IMG/VR virus record: IMGVR_UViG_3300024292_000017
Span: 1 to 20,894 of that record
Reading direction: 5' to 3' (one strand)
Source of the DNA: a virus
DNA: 20,894 nt
The stretch's first letter is position 1. The number at the start of each line of letters is the position of its first letter. The notes under the pieces were generated by a model that was not told the DNA's origin, ran no database searches, and was given only the letters and a program-made list of their open reading frames with translations. Both the position numbers and the translations under genes were made by a program. Shown here piece after piece: positions 1,891 through 20,440 of the stretch.

Positions 1891-2832
1891 ATGGCACTTG
1901 GTTCAAATCATGTAACAAACACAACTGGCGCAACTTTCATTCCAGAGTTATGGAGTGACGAGATTGTAGCTGCTTATAAATCTAACTTGGTACTTGCTAA
2001 CTTGGTAAATAAAATGCCAATGTCTGGTAAAAAAGGTGATACTTTACATATCCCTAAACCTACCCGTGGTTCTGCTTCTGCTAAAGGTGCAGAGTCTCAA
2101 GTAACTTTGATTGCTGCTACAGAATCAGAAGTACAAGTCAGCGTCGACAAACATTATGAATACTCTCGTTTAATCGAAGATATTACTGATGTACAAGCAC
2201 TAGCTTCTATGCGTAAATTCTACACAGATGATGCTGGTTACGCTCTAGCTAAACAAGTTGATGATGATTTGTTTGCTTTAGGTAAATCACTAGGTAATGG
2301 TGATGGTTCTGACTGGACTCATAGCAACAGCTTCTATGTTGATGGTGCTAACGGTATTGCTGCTTATGCAGAAGATACTGTAGCTGCTACTGATATTTTC
2401 ACAGATTTAGCTTTCCGTGAACTTATCAAGCAACTAGATGATAACGATACTCCAATGGAAAATCGCTTTATTGTTATTCCTCCTTCAGTTCGTCAAACTA
2501 TTATGGGTATCGACCGTTACAACTCTAGCGACTTCGTAGATGGTCGTGGTGTTATGAATGGTCAAATCGGTACTTTGTACGGTATTGATGTTTACGTTAG
2601 TTCTAACTGTCCTGTAATTGAAACTGCTGCTAACAACACAGCTTCAGCTATAGATACTAAAGCTGCTATCATTGGTCATAAAGATGCAATGGTACTTGCA
2701 GAGCAAATGGGCGTACGTTCACAAACTCAATACAAGCAAGAGTACTTAAGTAACTTGTTTACTTCTGACACTCTTTATGGTACAGAGGTTTTACGACCTG
2801 AGTCTGCACTTGTTGTAGCTGTTCCAGCTTAG
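1891..2832 (+). CDS. Major capsid protein (313 aa)
   Basis: The protein has the features of an HK97-fold phage coat protein. The N-terminus runs ATFIPELWSDEIVAAYKSNL and then LVNKMPMSGKKGDTLHIPK. A helical spine segment follows (SRLIEDITDVQALASMR). The later part carries a typical P-domain/A-domain pattern, including RFIVIPPSVRQTIM, GTLYGIDVYVSSN and a C-terminal GTEVLRPESALVVAVPA. Its length fits podovirus coat proteins. Synteny (scaffold directly upstream, strong terminator directly downstream) supports the call. It would be the most abundant structural protein, forming the icosahedral shell. AAAGGT (1877-1882) lies just before the ATG. The gene uses T-ending codons heavily (GCT, GGT, ACT), fitting high expression. 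Confidence 0.93.
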   Translation: MALGSNHVTNTTGATFIPELWSDEIVAAYKSNLVLANLVNKMPMSGKKGDTLHIPKPTRGSASAKGAESQVTLIAATESEVQVSVDKHYEYSRLIEDITDVQALASMRKFYTDDAGYALAKQVDDDLFALGKSLGNGDGSDWTHSNSFYVDGANGIAAYAEDTVAATDIFTDLAFRELIKQLDDNDTPMENRFIVIPPSVRQTIMGIDRYNSSDFVDGRGVMNGQIGTLYGIDVYVSSNCPVIETAANNTASAIDTKAAIIGHKDAMVLAEQMGVRSQTQYKQEYLSNLFTSDTLYGTEVLRPESALVVAVPA

Positions 2833-2921: not shown

Positions 2922-4241
2922 TTGAGTATATACAGAGGTTCAGGTGGTTCAGGAGATGCTACTTCTGATGCTACCATAAATGAAGTAACAGAGTTAGTAC
3001 AAGATGCTAATGAGTATAAAAATGAAGCAGCTACTTCTGCATCTAACGCTGCAACAAGTGCTAGTAATGCTGCTACTTCTGAATCTAATGCTAGTACCTC
3101 AGAGACCAATGCAAGCTCTAGCGAAACAAATGCTGCCACCAGCGAAGCTAATGCAGCAACTTCAGAAACTAATGCAGCTACGTCTGCTACCAGTGCTTCT
3201 ACTTCAGCGTCTAATGCGTCAACTTCTGCAACGGCAGCACAGACTGCACAGACAGCAGCAGAAACAGCACAAGCTAGTGCAGAGACAGCAGAGACTAATG
3301 CTAGTGCATCTGCCACATCAGCAAGCAATTCAGCAAGTACAGCAACTACACAAGCTGGTATAGCTACTACTAAAGCTAGTGAAGCCTCTGTATCAGCAAC
3401 TAATGCAGCAACTAGTGAAACCAATGCAGCGAATAGTGCAGCTAGTGCATCAACTTCTGCTACAAACGCAGCTAATAGTGCATCAACTGCATCAACAGCA
3501 GCAACTAACGCTGCTACTTCTGAATCTAATGCTAGTACAAGTGAAACAAATGCAGCAGCTTCAGCAACGTCTGCAAGCTCCTCTGCCAGCTCCGCATCCT
3601 CTAGTGCTACTAGTGCAGCGGGTAGTGCAACAACTGCCACTACAAAGGCTTCTGAGGCTTCTACGAGTGCTTCTAATGCCAGCACATCGGAAACTAATGC
3701 AAGTAACTCTGCAAGCGCAGCTAGTACATCTGCTACTAATGCTAGTACATCAGAGAGTAACGCAGCTACATCAGCTACTAGCGCAGCTTCCTCTGCTAGT
3801 GCAGCAGCAACAAGTGCAACGGAGGCAGCAGCTAGTGCAGCCAGCATAGACGTTAGTGGCTTTGTAACAAAAAGTAACAACCTTTCTGACTTAGCCAATG
3901 CATCATCTGCCCTTACTAACTTAGGCATAGCTAATCACGATGACATTACTGTTGATGGCAGTGGTAACGTGGGTATTGGGACTAGTAGCCCCACTGAAAA
4001 ACTTGATGTTAATGGTACTGTAAAAGCTACAGCATTTGAAGGTGATGGTTCAGCCCTTACTGGTGTCTCAGCAGGTGCTACAGGCGGCGGTGGCGACCAA
4101 GTATTTGTTGAAAACTCACAGACAGTGACAACAGACTATACAATCCCAACAGGTAAGAGTGCGTCAAGTGTGGGGTCAATTACAATAAATACAGGTGTTA
4201 CAGTGACTATTTCTTCAGGTAGTGTGTGGGTGGTGTTATGA
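2922..4241 (+). CDS. Tail fibre protein with long Ala/Ser/Thr heptad shaft (439 aa)
   Basis: A TTG start is chosen because AGGAG (2910-2914) sits seven bases before it and the product begins with a sensible N-terminus (MSIYRGSGGSGDAT). Residues 1-36 are the probable virion-attachment part. Residues 37-309 are 39 perfect seven-residue repeats rich in Ala, Ser, Thr and Asn, like the shaft of lambda Stf-type side fibres. Residues 310-330 carry the common fibre motif NNLSDLANASSALTNLGI, followed by GNVGIGTSSPTEKLDVNG, often seen in fibre bodies. The last ~50 residues form a beta-rich cap (TVTTDYTIPTGKSASS...SGSVWVVL). It should form a trimeric fibre contacting the host surface. Its stop overlaps the next start (ATGA), so the tip-like gene downstream is probably coupled to it. 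Confidence 0.87.
   Translation: MSIYRGSGGSGDATSDATINEVTELVQDANEYKNEAATSASNAATSASNAATSESNASTSETNASSSETNAATSEANAATSETNAATSATSASTSASNASTSATAAQTAQTAAETAQASAETAETNASASATSASNSASTATTQAGIATTKASEASVSATNAATSETNAANSAASASTSATNAANSASTASTAATNAATSESNASTSETNAAASATSASSSASSASSSATSAAGSATTATTKASEASTSASNASTSETNASNSASAASTSATNASTSESNAATSATSAASSASAAATSATEAAASAASIDVSGFVTKSNNLSDLANASSALTNLGIANHDDITVDGSGNVGIGTSSPTEKLDVNGTVKATAFEGDGSALTGVSAGATGGGGDQVFVENSQTVTTDYTIPTGKSASSVGSITINTGVTVTISSGSVWVVL
3030..3848 (+). repeat. 39 tandem heptad-coding units in the fibre shaft
   Basis: The DNA encodes 39 consecutive units of 21 bases with the protein pattern [A/S/T]-x-S-x-x-x-A (for example ATSESNA, STSETNA, TTKASEA) and no slip in register. 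Codons vary between units, so the array is held at protein level rather than being a fresh DNA expansion. One exact 29-base direct repeat occurs at 3069-3097 and 3510-3538, exactly 21 units (441 bases) apart. Recombination there would remove 147 residues in frame. Confidence 0.9.
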
Positions 4242-4597
4242 GTCAGTTAAACGTAGACAGCATTAAAGACAGAACAGGCGCTAACCAACCAGACATTGTA
4301 GGCGCTGCTAAAGCCTTTGTTAATTTCGATGGCACAGGAACTGTTACTATTCGCAATGGGTTTAATGTAAGCAGCATTACGGATAACGGTATAGGTAATT
4401 ATAATGTTAATTTCACTGATGCTATGCCTGACGCAAGTTATTCAACAGTAGTAAGCCTGAATAACAGAGACTTGAGTTACATGCATTTTGCTACTTCAAT
4501 GGCGGTAACATCAAGTTACGTAAAAATAACAACTGCACAAAGCAATCTCGTTTCCGGTGTAGATTATAATCATGTTTCAGTTGCCATCTTTCGCTAA
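4238..4597 (+). CDS. Fibre-tip-like domain protein, copy 1 (119 aa)
   Basis: The start at 4238 (MSQLNVDSIKD) is preferred over an upstream in-frame start at 4226 because it overlaps the fibre stop as ATGA and matches the N-terminus of copy 3 (MSQLN). The central segment (VNFDGTGTVTIR, NVSSITDNG, YNVNFTDAMPDASY) is shared with two further genes at 5058 and 5456, and all three end in a similar short strand (VSVAIFR here). This segment is common in tail-fibre proteins of marine phages, in my recollection, where it is usually part of a longer fibre. The protein looks all-beta. As a separate small protein right after the fibre gene it may cap the fibre or act as a receptor-binding accessory. The role is inferred from position. 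Confidence 0.78.
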   Translation: MSQLNVDSIKDRTGANQPDIVGAAKAFVNFDGTGTVTIRNGFNVSSITDNGIGNYNVNFTDAMPDASYSTVVSLNNRDLSYMHFATSMAVTSSYVKITTAQSNLVSGVDYNHVSVAIFR

Positions 4598-4824: not shown

Positions 4825-5058
4825 ATGATTAAAGTAGACATAAACAAAGCCAAAGACATTACACACGAGAAACGTCGTTCTAAACGCTCTGAAGAGTTCG
4901 CGCCATTAGATGTGCAGGCAACTATCCCAGCCAAAGCAGTAGAAGCTGAAGCAGCTCGTCAAGCTATTCGTGACAAGTATGACGCTATGCAAGTTGAGAT
5001 TGATGGTGCAACATCTGCTGACAAGCTGAAAGAAGTGATTGAACGCGAGGCATTGTAA
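4825..5058 (+). CDS. Small helical companion protein of the fibre cassette (77 aa)
   Basis: The start at 4825 (MIKVDINKAKDI) is chosen because AGGAG (4812-4816) is eight bases upstream; an in-frame ATG at 4804 lies inside the preceding gene and lacks this site. The sequence is helical and charged: IKVDINKAKDITHEKRR, then FAPLDVQATIP, then AARQAIRDKYDAMQVEI and a C-terminal GATSADKLKEVIE. This pattern accompanies RIIY-type proteins in other phages, in my recollection, and is sometimes fused to them. Function is unknown. The stop overlaps the next start as TAATG. Confidence 0.75.
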   Translation: MIKVDINKAKDITHEKRRSKRSEEFAPLDVQATIPAKAVEAEAARQAIRDKYDAMQVEIDGATSADKLKEVIEREAL

Positions 5059-5435
5059 TGGCTGGCTCTTTAAAGTTTGACACTTGGTTGAACGATGACA
5101 GCACAGAGAATTATAAGTGCCGTGCTTGGGTGAATTTCAACGGCACAGGTACAGTGGCTATTCGTGAGTCTGGTAATGTTAGCAGTATTACAGATGGGGG
5201 AACTGGTAAATACACTGTTAATTTTACTAATGCGATGCCTGATAGCAATTACTCGCTTGTTGGAACAACACAGTATGATCAAAGCAACTCTACAGCAACC
5301 GCTTATTTAATGGGCATTCAGATAGCGAACACGACAAATCCATTGCAGCCCACTAGCGCGCTAATATGGGGCAGATATGGTGTAAGCACAGTGTTATATG
5401 ATCAGACGACTTGCTGCGTAGCCATCTTCCGCTAA
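5058..5435 (+). CDS. Fibre-tip-like domain protein, copy 2 (125 aa)
   Basis: This is the second copy of the domain found at 4238 and 5456. The shared segment is WVNFNGTGTVAIR, NVSSITDGGTGKYTVNF and NAMPDSNYS, and the end (CCVAIFR) also matches. The N-terminus (MAGSLKFDTWLNDDS) differs from the MSQLN start of the other two, and the distal half (about residues 70-118) is unrelated in sequence, as expected for a variable, possibly receptor-contacting part. The ATG overlaps the upstream stop (TAATG). Confidence 0.78.
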   Translation: MAGSLKFDTWLNDDSTENYKCRAWVNFNGTGTVAIRESGNVSSITDGGTGKYTVNFTNAMPDSNYSLVGTTQYDQSNSTATAYLMGIQIANTTNPLQPTSALIWGRYGVSTVLYDQTTCCVAIFR

Positions 5436-5455: not shown

Positions 5456-5830
5456 ATGTCACAATTAAACATAAGCACCTTAGCCAACTTAGCAGGCAGT
5501 GAGACTACGCCGATAGCTGACGTAGTAAATGGCAGCGCAAGAGCTTGGGTAAATTTTAATGGAACAGGCACTGTAGCAATACGGGCTAGTTATAATGTAA
5601 GTAGTATCACTGATAATGGTGCAGGAGATTATACAGTTAATTTTGCTACTGATATGCCTGATGTAAATTATTGTGTAACTTCACATGGTGGTGGTGCTTC
5701 TAGTGGTATTGCTGTTATAGTGACGGATACTGCTAATATTACATTTTCAGTAGGCAGTTTTGTTGTAAGGTCAATTGACTATCTTTCTTTTGCTGATTTA
5801 GGCTTGGTTTGCGTTGCAGTATTTAGATAA
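5456..5830 (+). CDS. Fibre-tip-like domain protein, copy 3 (124 aa)
   Basis: The third paralogue starts MSQLNISTLANLAG, like copy 1, and shares WVNFNGTGTVAIR, NVSSITDNG and DYTVNF with both others. It ends VCVAVFR. The shared segment is close to copy 2 at protein level, but the DNA differs at many third positions, so the duplication is not recent or the copies were acquired separately. AGGAG lies shortly before the ATG. The distal part (roughly residues 78-115) is again unlike the others. A role as an alternative or extra fibre tip is inferred. Confidence 0.78.
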   Translation: MSQLNISTLANLAGSETTPIADVVNGSARAWVNFNGTGTVAIRASYNVSSITDNGAGDYTVNFATDMPDVNYCVTSHGGGASSGIAVIVTDTANITFSVGSFVVRSIDYLSFADLGLVCVAVFR

Positions 5831-16909: not shown

Positions 16910-18607
16910 TTACCCCTCGCAAGCTACACACTCTCCAGTTGAACCACGAACCCCTGCTTCACTACGTATGTAGTACAAGGACTTAATATACTTATCTTTA
17001 AATGCCAGCTTATGCACTCTACTAATCTCCTCCTCTGGAGCATCTGCTGGGAAGAATAGGTTGAGGCTTTGTGCTTGACATATAAACTTCTGTCTTACAC
17101 TAGCTAACCTAATCAATACCTCTTGGTTAATCTCAAAGGAAGTTTTGAACACTACCTTCTCTTCATCAGTTAGCCAGTCTACTAGCTGTACTGAACCGTT
17201 GTCTGCAATAATAGCGTTGATGTTGTCATCGTTATAAACTCCCTTAGCTCTCATCAAGTCTACTAACACAGGGTTGATACGGTTAATCTCTCCTGCTGGG
17301 CTACCCTGTACAAACACATTCTTATATACAGGCTCGATACCCTGACTAACACCACCACAAATAAGCGCACTAGAACTGTTAGGAGCGATGGCTAGGAGGT
17401 GTGTATTACGTACCCCTGTACCCTTACACCACTTAGGCTCTCCCTTCGTCTTAGCGAGCCACTCAGAGCCTTTCTTAGCCTCCTTCTGAATACCTTTAAA
17501 GATAGTAGAGTTTAGCATATGTGCTTCCATTGATTCAATATCAATCATGTTCTGTTGTAGGTAGCTGTGGAAACCTAGTGTACCTAGACCCAAAGCCCTA
17601 CCACTCTCTGTAAAACGCACTGCTTTCTCTAAACCTTTAATACCTCTACCCATCTGTATAAACTCTTCAGCTACACAGTCTAGGAATACAATAGCATTTT
17701 GTACTGCGTCTGTATCTTTCCACTCATCATACTTAGCTAGGTTCATAGAACTGAGTACACACGTAAAGGTATGGAACTCATCAGCAGGTAGGGTTATCTC
17801 TGTACATAGGTTAGAAGCCTTTACAGTTAAACCATGAGTTCTGTACGCCTCTGGATTAGCTCTGTTCATTCTATCTATAAATACAAAGTAACCTTTACCT
17901 GTTACCATCTTAACTTTAAGCGCACGTTGGTATCTAGCAACAGCCTCTTCATCACCTGACTCTAGTTGCTCGATGAACTTATCTGTTACTAGCCAACCAA
18001 TGTTACAATCATCTGGGTTGTTTAATGTATGTGCTGCCACTTCCCAGAAGTCTGTATGCTCTAGTTCGATGTATCCTGCCCATGCACCTCGTCGTGTATT
18101 TCCTTGCGACACATCTCTGCTAAGCTGGATATAGTCTCTAAGGACTGGCAATACCCCAGAAGCATTACCTCCTGAACTGATGGAATCTCCTCTACCTCTA
18201 ATTGCGCCAAGATAAGATGAAGTTCCAAAACCGTTTTTTGTAAGTATTGCAGTTTCTTTTTGTGATTCGTAAAATTCATATACACTATCTCCTACGTAGT
18301 TACCTGAACAACTAACTGGACATCCTCTGTTTGTGCCCATGTTAGCTAGGACTGGTGTAGAACAAGCTAGGTGTCCAGACCAGAGTAGGTTAAAGAATAC
18401 TCTATCCCAATGGTCTTTGTCAACACCCATGTGTTTAGCTGCTGTACTACTTATGCGTTTATAAATACTATATAAGTCTGGGTACTCCTCTGTTGTGTAC
18501 TTCTCTTTAAGTAACTGCCAAGCAGAGGTACTATACCATTGTGGTAGTTTCCCTGTAGCTTGTAGTTGCTTTCGTTCTGCGCTTAGTTCTTCGTATATAC
18601 TCTTCAT
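16910..18607 (-). CDS. nrdA: Class I ribonucleotide reductase, alpha (large) subunit, short form (565 aa)
   Basis: The enzyme reduces ribonucleotides to deoxyribonucleotides for phage DNA synthesis. The start at 18607 is chosen because it lies one base after the beta stop (TAATATG); longer in-frame starts run into the beta gene. Key residues are present: C100 and C283 (the substrate-reducing pair), N266, C268 and E270 (SNLCTEI, radical site), Y545-Y546 (LYY, radical transfer) and C560/C563 in the C-terminal tail (GECVACEG). The active-site loop reads APNSSSALICGG. At 565 residues it is far shorter than E. coli NrdA (761) and has no N-terminal ATP cone, so dATP shut-off of the usual kind is not expected. 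The N-terminal segment (STPVLANMGTNRGCPVSCSG) resembles the cyanopodovirus (P-SSP7) type, once mistaken for class II. Confidence 0.92.
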   Translation of the reverse strand: MKSIYEELSAERKQLQATGKLPQWYSTSAWQLLKEKYTTEEYPDLYSIYKRISSTAAKHMGVDKDHWDRVFFNLLWSGHLACSTPVLANMGTNRGCPVSCSGNYVGDSVYEFYESQKETAILTKNGFGTSSYLGAIRGRGDSISSGGNASGVLPVLRDYIQLSRDVSQGNTRRGAWAGYIELEHTDFWEVAAHTLNNPDDCNIGWLVTDKFIEQLESGDEEAVARYQRALKVKMVTGKGYFVFIDRMNRANPEAYRTHGLTVKASNLCTEITLPADEFHTFTCVLSSMNLAKYDEWKDTDAVQNAIVFLDCVAEEFIQMGRGIKGLEKAVRFTESGRALGLGTLGFHSYLQQNMIDIESMEAHMLNSTIFKGIQKEAKKGSEWLAKTKGEPKWCKGTGVRNTHLLAIAPNSSSALICGGVSQGIEPVYKNVFVQGSPAGEINRINPVLVDLMRAKGVYNDDNINAIIADNGSVQLVDWLTDEEKVVFKTSFEINQEVLIRLASVRQKFICQAQSLNLFFPADAPEEEISRVHKLAFKDKYIKSLYYIRSEAGVRGSTGECVACEG

Positions 18608-18608
18608 A

Positions 18609-19562
18609 TTACCATGCAAACCTTGTCTCTTGCCAATCCCTATTATAACTGTTCCCCTGTTTATGGAAGAAGTCATGTAGTTGTGGCGTATTAATGTTTT
18701 TATAGAACCACTTGGAGATAGGGTCATAGTCTACCTCATACAGTGGTTCTAACCTTAGTTGTTCAAGGCAAAGGTTTAACCTAGCTTGAATAAAGTTCTT
18801 CATCTGTAAGTCTGTGACACCTTTAATCTCACCCTTCTCAAATATCATATCAATGATACGAGACTCATGCTCATAGATTTTACCACAGGTCTTATAGATT
18901 TTCTTATCTAACTCTTTGTTGTCTAGCTGTTCACTCTCTTCTCTTAATGTATTGAATAACCAAGCACCCGCTAGACTGTGTAGGTTCTCATCCCTTACAC
19001 TGAAGTTAATACCTGCTGCCATGTTGACTAACTTGTTCTTACCCTCAGCTTGGAAGTGCTTTAGAAAGGCGAAGTTAGAATACAGTACAGCACCTTCTAC
19101 AATAGAACCAACTGCTAACGAAGCTAACGTATCATCACCTTCAAACTGCCTATCTAACCAGTCCATACGACCACGTAAGGTCTTGTCTTTAACGTAACTA
19201 TTATAGAACTCCTCAGTGTTTAGGTTCATCACCTCGTTAATCTTGTTATAGAAAGGTGCATGTACATTAAGTTCAAACATACCAAACACAGAAGCCATAC
19301 GCTGTATCTCTGGTCGTCTAAACTTCTTACGAATAAAGTCTAACCAGTAGTCATTACCTACGTGTGTTTCATACAAGGTAAATAGTTTTAACACAGTTAC
19401 TACTCCATGCATCTCTGCTTCTGTAAGATTGTTGTGTAGGTCATGTAAGTCCTTATCCATACCAATCTCTTTAGCAGTCCAGAAGATGTCCTCTTGCAAC
19501 TCTGCAAACTGCTCTGCCTGTGGATATGCAATAACGTAAGCCTCTTGTTTGTCTGTAATCAT
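18609..19562 (-). CDS. nrdB: Class I ribonucleotide reductase, beta (radical-generating) subunit (317 aa)
   Basis: This subunit holds a di-metal site that makes the radical passed to the alpha subunit encoded directly downstream. Likely ligands are E65 (in place of the Asp of E. coli), E97, H101, E156, E192 and H195 (RDENLH). Y105 lies four residues after H101, as the radical Tyr does in E. coli, and W28 and D191 match the radical-transfer pair. The oddity is the first Glu-His pair: it is ExxxH here (FELNVH) rather than ExxH, so one ligand is shifted. AAGGA lies before the start, which follows the MazG-like stop directly (TAAATG). The E65 and spacing features suggest a non-standard metal site; which metals it uses cannot be told. 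Confidence 0.92.
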   Translation of the reverse strand: MITDKQEAYVIAYPQAEQFAELQEDIFWTAKEIGMDKDLHDLHNNLTEAEMHGVVTVLKLFTLYETHVGNDYWLDFIRKKFRRPEIQRMASVFGMFELNVHAPFYNKINEVMNLNTEEFYNSYVKDKTLRGRMDWLDRQFEGDDTLASLAVGSIVEGAVLYSNFAFLKHFQAEGKNKLVNMAAGINFSVRDENLHSLAGAWLFNTLREESEQLDNKELDKKIYKTCGKIYEHESRIIDMIFEKGEIKGVTDLQMKNFIQARLNLCLEQLRLEPLYEVDYDPISKWFYKNINTPQLHDFFHKQGNSYNRDWQETRFAW

Positions 19563-19877
19563 TTACTCTTCCTTTACAAATATGCCATCTATCATCTGAC
19601 CCCTACGGTCTTTGATATCATTATAGGCGTGTTCTAAACATTCATCAATAGATAATTTATGTCTCTCTGCTATGTTGATTAGCACTACAATAATATCACC
19701 AATATCATCAATAGGACTTTGCCCTGTAGATAATGAGTCTACTAACTCAGTTACCTCTTCGATTAACTTCTTTACTTGTGCCTGGTCATTAGAGCCATTG
19801 ATTAAGTTCCTTGCATAATGCCAGTTAGTTATCTTCTTAATAGTAAACGTAGCCTTTGGGTTTTCATTATTCGTCAT
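19563..19877 (-). CDS. mazG: MazG-like nucleotide pyrophosphohydrolase (104 aa)
   Basis: A single MazG-type all-helical domain. The metal-binding pattern is visible as E40-E41-x-x-E44 (KLIEEVTELVD) followed by D57/D58 and D61 (PIDDIGDIIVVL). The end (AYNDIKDRRGQMIDG) is typical of phage members. Such enzymes hydrolyse nucleoside triphosphates to monophosphates with release of pyrophosphate; the preferred substrate cannot be told from sequence. Its position directly before both RNR genes suggests work on the nucleotide pool. GAGGAAG precedes the ATG, and the start overlaps the upstream membrane-protein gene by 11 bases. Confidence 0.83.
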   Translation of the reverse strand: MTNNENPKATFTIKKITNWHYARNLINGSNDQAQVKKLIEEVTELVDSLSTGQSPIDDIGDIIVVLINIAERHKLSIDECLEHAYNDIKDRRGQMIDGIFVKEE

Positions 19878-20088
19878 TCCAATCTTCCTCTTCCATCATC
19901 TGTACTACCTCTATCTTATACACAAGTCCGCAACCAATAATCCACTGTACTAAGAATACGTGTTCGTATAGTTTATACTTAGGATTAAATATATCATCGT
20001 ACTCTACATAAGTTGTAAACCCTATAAAAGGTAGCCAGAAGCCAAACAGGTTCTTACCAAACAACTTAATAGGGTTACTAGTATCCAT
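19867..20088 (-). CDS. Small membrane protein of unknown function (73 aa)
   Basis: Two hydrophobic stretches are visible (about residues 15-29, FGFWLPFIGFTTYV, and 44-57, VFLVQWIIGCGLVY), followed by an acidic tail (MMEEEDWNDE). The start has a good ribosome site (GGAGTAGG). The gene is tightly packed between the DUF3310 and MazG-like genes. I do not recognise a family; membrane attachment is the only prediction the sequence supports. Confidence 0.72.
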   Translation of the reverse strand: MDTSNPIKLFGKNLFGFWLPFIGFTTYVEYDDIFNPKYKLYEHVFLVQWIIGCGLVYKIEVVQMMEEEDWNDE

Positions 20089-20089
20089 A

Positions 20090-20440
20090 CTACCTACTCC
20101 AGTTTTCTAATATCTTCTCAAGGTAGTGAATAGCTTTCTTAATATCTTCTTCTCTACTACCTTTGGTTCTGAGCAAATACTTAAGGGCATTGCCCTCGTA
20201 GAAATCTAAATGATAAGCATCAATAATATCCCAAGGTTGTATTAGGTGTTTCTTATAATGGTCTCCACCTACCTGTTTGTCTGATGCTCTCTCTTCATAG
20301 TGTAACCCATCATTGCCGTTCTGCCCAATGATATCTATTCTACTTGTAGATTTACCACAAACACCCTTATTGATTAAGTCATATCTACCTAAATCTTTCA
20401 TACGTTGTTCTTCTTCTGGTGTCATTATATCAATTTCCAT
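20090..20440 (-). CDS. DUF3310 phage protein (116 aa)
   Basis: Residues 56-112 match the DUF3310 pattern: VGGDHYKKHLIQPWDIIDAY, then GNALKYLLRTKGS and EEDIKKAIHYLEKI. The domain is phage-specific; I recall it also in the T7 gp1.7 nucleotide kinase, which would fit the nucleotide operon here, but the ~55-residue N-terminal part is not recognised and kinase activity is not shown by any motif. The start at 20440 is preferred over an internal ATG at 20425 because GAGAGGG lies five bases upstream. It overlaps the metallophosphoesterase end by 11 bases. Confidence 0.85.
   Translation of the reverse strand: MEIDIMTPEEEQRMKDLGRYDLINKGVCGKSTSRIDIIGQNGNDGLHYEERASDKQVGGDHYKKHLIQPWDIIDAYHLDFYEGNALKYLLRTKGSREEDIKKAIHYLEKILENWSR

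Follow-up and report, generated by a model that had tools for sequence, protein, structure and literature searches.

The class I ribonucleotide reductase (RNR) beta subunit encoded in the window, i.e. the whole stretch of 20,894 nucleotides of viral DNA analysed here, carries three residues instead of two between the glutamate and the histidine of its first metal-binding Glu-His pair (ExxxH instead of ExxH). Judged from sequence comparison, this spacing is a genuine inherited variant of the metal site that is fixed across a large lineage of phages and actinobacteria, and the site is otherwise complete, as all six dimetal ligand residues are kept and none has been lost. The dimetal site is what defines the subclasses of class I RNR; here, the ligand spacing itself has changed and become fixed in a large phage lineage, and in some cultured relatives of Nocardioides the ExxxH protein is the only class I beta. 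Phage and actinobacterial betas have been flagged as unexplored ground in a review (PMC8463856).

The gene, nrdB, lies on the minus strand (18609..19562, read from 19562 to 18609) and encodes a radical-generating subunit of 317 aa, while the plus strand at the same coordinates is crowded with stops. The protein matches the Pfam profile PF00268 with 5.8e-49; it departs from the strict ExxH spacing of the first Glu-His pair, a motif that Pfam does not require. Ligand 1 is E65 (GAA, 19370-19368; Asp84 in E. coli numbering), which aligns with the Asp/Glu ligand 1 of all references. Ligand 2, E97 (GAA, 19274-19272; Glu115), and ligand 3, H101 (CAT, 19262-19260; His118), enclose L98-N99-V100 (19263..19271; L98 is CTT at 19271-19269), a stretch that is only two residues long in other class I betas, which makes this a one-residue insertion. 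They are followed by Y105 (TAT, 19250-19248), the homologue of E. coli Tyr122, and by E156 (GAA, 19097-19095; Glu204), ligand 4 and the fourth carboxylate, which an earlier sequence-only reading of this DNA did not list. Ligands 5 and 6 show normal spacing in E192-N-L-H195 (18978..18989; E192 GAG, 18989-18987; H195 CAC, 18980-18978). All six ligands, in the order carboxylate, Glu, His, Glu, Glu, His, are invariant in an alignment of 92 sequences, and so is Y105. With the strand corrected to minus, the codons bear out the residues that the sequence-only reading had named (E65, E97-x-x-x-H101, Y105 and E192-x-x-H195). It had also singled out the glutamate at ligand 1, which is present as E65; this alone is no oddity, as Glu occupies the same place in classes Ic and Id (PMC6370689, Table 3). 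The departure from standard ligand spacing might suggest an enzyme like those of class Ie, metal-free and with its tyrosine modified; this is highly improbable, as class Ie has lost the carboxylates at positions 2, 4 and 5 (PMC6370689), whereas all four carboxylates and both histidines are invariant in the clade.

The spacing recurs widely among relatives. E97, H101 and Y105 are kept in all 80 related viral contigs (58-99% identity), where residue 98 is aliphatic, and all 13 relatives from annotated phages (about 30-59% identity) share the three residues and the ExxxH spacing; the hosts of these phages are Vibrio, Pseudomonas, Rhodococcus, Aeromonas, Klebsiella and Acinetobacter. Phage relatives at 29% identity and below have ExxH (HTVC120P as well as Citromicrobium, Caulobacter, Staphylococcus, Rhizobium and Maribacter phages). 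At more than 300 bits against a clade profile, 152 of 153 unique sequences carry ExxxH, a count to be read in the light of a profile built mainly from ExxxH members, although a one-residue gap is cheap beside 300 bits and the single ExxH sequence, L188, was still recovered. All 24 class Id-type proteins (Glu, Lys, Trp) in the band of 80-300 bits are ExxH. Hence, the one-residue shift on the ligand helix proposed by the sequence-only reading holds across the clade. An artefact of sequencing or assembly, or decay of the gene, has nothing but the odd spacing in its favour and a negligible probability: the motif is repeated in 80 viral contigs, cultured phages and bacteria, the frame is open and the alpha partner is intact. 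An error at this very codon, which the earlier reading had named as a possible undoing of its claim, is rejected by the 80/80 viral contigs and the 152/153 clade sequences.

Cellular homologues that keep ExxxH occur in Nocardioides, Segeticoccus, Phycicoccus and Lentzea. Such genes are rare in cells, with a close copy in 7 of 98 Nocardioides, and 296 Bacteroidota and 395 actinobacterial genomes yielded none beyond the clade members chosen as centres. The same genomes contained no intermediates; scores fall from 467-481 bits for the centres to at most 163 bits.

The position of the extra residue follows from the register of helix C, which was tested by moving a scoring matrix, based on 20 proteins of the ExxH type, stepwise over the clade sequences. 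The 13 residues preceding the glutamate score +8.1 bits with E97 as ligand, compared with -10.9 bits with L98, and 51 of 52 sequences favour E97; the residues following the histidine fit best with H101 as ligand in 52/52. As both halves of helix C stay in register, the extra residue sits between the Glu and His ligands. By this test, the usual ligand position is E97 and not L98, so that the assignment of residue 98 as the canonical position in the sequence-only reading has to be given up. Counting back from H101, position 98 does hold an aliphatic or variable residue, and a metal site without ligand 2 could be envisaged, in which 98 is the canonical place, E97 points away and a five-ligand, altered or one-metal site results. 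This is quite improbable in view of the N-terminal flank scores. Moreover, E97 never varies, even among relatives as distant as about 30% identity, whereas nine different residues occur at position 98 across the clade (L, I, V, R, G, M, Q, K, N), and the glutamate matching E97 serves as the ExxH ligand in L188, which has no extra residue. The register test thus rejects a missing ligand, and of the two outcomes previously suggested, a local bulge or a lost ligand, the bulge stands as the best reading.

Structure prediction agrees with such an arrangement. In AlphaFold2 models run with family alignments (pLDDT 87 and 90, helices assigned by coarse DSSP), helix C of the window beta spans residues 84-111 (28 residues) and that of L188 residues 89-115 (27 residues), with equal flanks in both models, where the helix begins 13 residues ahead of the Glu and runs 10 beyond the His. 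The prediction for the window beta is therefore a helix without a break that exceeds its L188 counterpart by one residue. In ferritin-like helices, single-residue insertions can be absorbed as π-helices. An i to i+4 pair may likewise face one side on a plain α-helix, and a π-turn is thus plausible rather than proven. The sequence-only reading would have counted as a refutation an E97 in the normal position together with an insertion already described for the family. Half of this applies: the position is confirmed, but a search of openly available paper texts found no description of ExxxH, a π-helix or a one-residue insertion in RNR. Among solved structures, no clade member was found, the best PDB match of the window beta by phmmer being the NrdBk protein 9dws at only 1.5e-29.

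The closest kin of the window beta are the class Id (NrdBi) enzymes. In a tree built by a quick method from an alignment without the five trait columns, the ExxxH sequences form one clade (SH-aLRT 99) with a long stem and with L188 inside; this clade is sister to the manganese class Id rows, with NrdBk-like rows outside, although several branches are long, so that the clade as such is better secured than the order of the deep branches. In a Foldseek search, class Id structures ranked first, with 6cwq/6cwp as the nearest solved folds, and the ferritin-like R2 fold of the window beta reaches TM 0.83-0.84 to class Id beta. According to PMC6754362, NrdBi is defined by a change from Asp to Glu at ligand 1 and from Tyr to Trp in helix B, with the lysine of class Id arising later. 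The clade has both features, namely Glu at ligand 1 in 52/52 rows and a helix B Trp at +7 to +9. The Glu-to-Trp spacing is 8 in 138 sequences, 7 in 12 and 9 in 2; in the window, G69...W73 (19344..19358, minus strand) places Gly at the class Id lysine site (ligand 1 +4) and the NrdBi-type Trp at +8, not +7. Like the clade, class Id betas (Flavobacterium johnsoniae, Leeuwenhoekiella blandensis, Facklamia ignava) combine Glu at ligand 1 and the helix B Trp with a Tyr at His+4 and a hydroxyl-bearing residue four positions ahead of ligand 5, as well as with an alpha without ATP-cone and a beta-alpha gene order. The clade differs by the extra residue between ligands 2 and 3, by a Trp that usually lies one residue further on, by Gly (52/52 rows) instead of the Lys (6/6 class Id rows) that marks the characterised class Id subgroup at ligand 1 +4, and by Ser (52/52) instead of Thr (6/6) at ligand 5 minus 4. 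Characterised class Id enzymes operate with an Mn2(IV,III) cofactor and have no tyrosyl radical.

A subgroup of NrdBi without the lysine (Rozman Grinberg et al. 2019, PMC6754362) resembles the clade by its description in having Glu at ligand 1, Trp and the ancestral Gly; the accessible part of that paper describes no spacing change and states that lysine-less members may employ a different radical mechanism. NrdBk proteins (Francisella hispaniensis 9dws; phages HTVC120P and pVa5) share with the clade the Ser at ligand 5 minus 4 (6/6 NrdBk-like rows) and the conserved Tyr, but have Asp at ligand 1 and normal ExxH. The proposal that the altered spacing is common to the clade of phage P-SSP7 fails. 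The beta of P-SSP7, a member of the Cyano SP or class O group (PMC6370689, PMC9531940), has E42, E71-DN-H74, E117, E147 and H150 and lacks the Tyr (PMC6370689), and its genome sequence encodes a beta of 237 aa with an EDNH motif, so that the published ligand table and the genome together rule out this kinship. Class O enzymes are likewise viral and devoid of an ATP-cone; unlike the window protein with its 317 aa, ExxxH and Y105, they have a beta of about 240 aa with ExxH and no Tyr, and a very different alpha.

L188 is a single metagenome sequence, 53% identical to the window beta, and the only clade member with ExxH (E-A-V-H). Its contig was binned as Bacteriovoracales and carries phage-type nucleotide genes. 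Given its placement inside the ExxxH clade, the insertion was lost there once, and the trait maps onto the tree as one gain and one loss. The result is a natural experiment, in which class Id combines Lys with ExxH, the clade Gly with ExxxH and L188 Gly with ExxH. The gene of L188 (3989-4954) also encodes one extra residue in helix B (HGVRDVTLKLF), ahead of ligand 1, so that this helix has gained a residue where helix C has lost one.

The neighbouring gene nrdA (16910..18607, minus strand) encodes the catalytic class I alpha subunit of about 565 aa, whose likely ATG at 18607 lies one base past the nrdB stop. By profile and motifs, this alpha is Id-like with its catalytic motifs present: it scores 628 bits against TIGR02510 (NrdE-prime), above the cut-off, its nearest solved relative is 6dqw (1.5e-112), and it contains NLCTE (NLCxE), the Tyr pair (YY) and a C-terminal CxxC (CVAC). 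No ATP-cone family was among its profile matches. The beta-alpha gene order is frequent in NrdAi (PMC9669993). In Acinetobacter phage Ab_121 (L096), phrog_30939, the clade beta and alpha are annotated as one fused protein of ~960 aa, and nrdB is split in some relatives (H15, H16, L136); in HHBS10_2, the gene for a LAGLIDADG homing endonuclease interrupts it.

The ExxxH beta is probably functional. Three actinobacteria possess no other class I beta, all four genomes examined also have a class II enzyme, and a cobalamin riboswitch precedes the ExxxH nrdB in 10 of 11 actinobacterial loci scanned, which points to use of the enzyme under B12 shortage; the functional reading follows from these observations. 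The riboswitch (RF00174) lies directly upstream of nrdB in Nocardioides and relatives (L190, L192-L198, L200, L201; about 3550-3870, plus strand). L195 has a second cobalamin riboswitch on the opposite strand, facing B12-transport-like genes. W28, D191 and Y306 are invariant in the 92-sequence alignment; we take them to be the radical-transfer chain positions equivalent to E. coli W48, D237 and Y356.

We consider it likely that the window encodes a functional beta of the NrdBi side, for which we infer a π-turn, a bond between E97 and the metals, and the nature of metal and radical as follows. The residue that the ExxxH lineage acquired between ligands 2 and 3 of helix C is most likely absorbed as a wide (π) turn within an otherwise unbroken helix. 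E97 would still reach the metals as a bridging Glu, with an altered backbone around it. In class Id, the lysine emerges where helix B unwinds downstream of ligand 1, and it bonds to the backbone carbonyl groups of both ligand 1 and ligand 2 (PMC6754362, PMC8463856); the bulge beside ligand 2 may partly replace the job of this lysine, which is absent here. The same helix B stretch varies in length within the clade (Glu to Trp 7, 8 or 9), and one might guess that this variation and the new residue after ligand 2 are linked. S188 (18999..19001, minus strand) occupies the site at which class Id has a Thr that keeps the Tyr at a distance from the metals (Thr191-Tyr104 bond, PMC8463856). Y105 is probably held by S188 in the same manner, and a stable tyrosyl radical would therefore be a less likely oxidant than a metal centre (Mn2 or Mn/Fe). 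As a Ser at this position also occurs in NrdBk-like proteins, for which no description of the cofactor was found, it is no specific pointer to an Id-like mechanism. A counterpoint to the whole scenario is L188, which persists without the insertion.

Two other mechanisms deserve mention. The clade could constitute a separate, undescribed class I subclass, in which the helix C insertion replaces the class Id lysine in setting oxidant access and cofactor chemistry and the metal-based radical is unlike those of classes Ia to Ie, which we regard as somewhat doubtful. An enzyme with a tyrosyl radical on Y105 (Ia/Ib-like, with Fe2 or Mn2) and a harmless insertion would be in line with the invariance of Y105 and the missing class Id lysine, but is unlikely, as ligand 1 is Glu, a Ser stands at E192-4, where Ia-type rows have Ile/Val, and tree and fold set the clade beside class Id.

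Further features of the window concern its other genes. Beside the RNR genes, at 19563-20440 on the minus strand, a weak MazG-like pyrophosphohydrolase match (0.0014, under the cut-off) and a DUF3310 protein (2.4e-7) were found. The major capsid protein (1891-2832, plus strand) is closest to those of Anabaena phage A-4L and Mastigocladus phage CHP58 at only 28-30%, and the phage is therefore distant from the isolates in the collection. It is followed at 2922-4241 (plus strand) by a probable tail fibre of 439 aa, which has no Pfam match and contains a long low-complexity repeat of Ala, Ser, Thr and Asn. Finally, three small neighbouring proteins (4226-4597, 5058-5435 and 5456-5830, plus strand) share a segment resembling VNFNGTGTVAIR..NVSSITDNG..YTVNF and are tandem paralogues.
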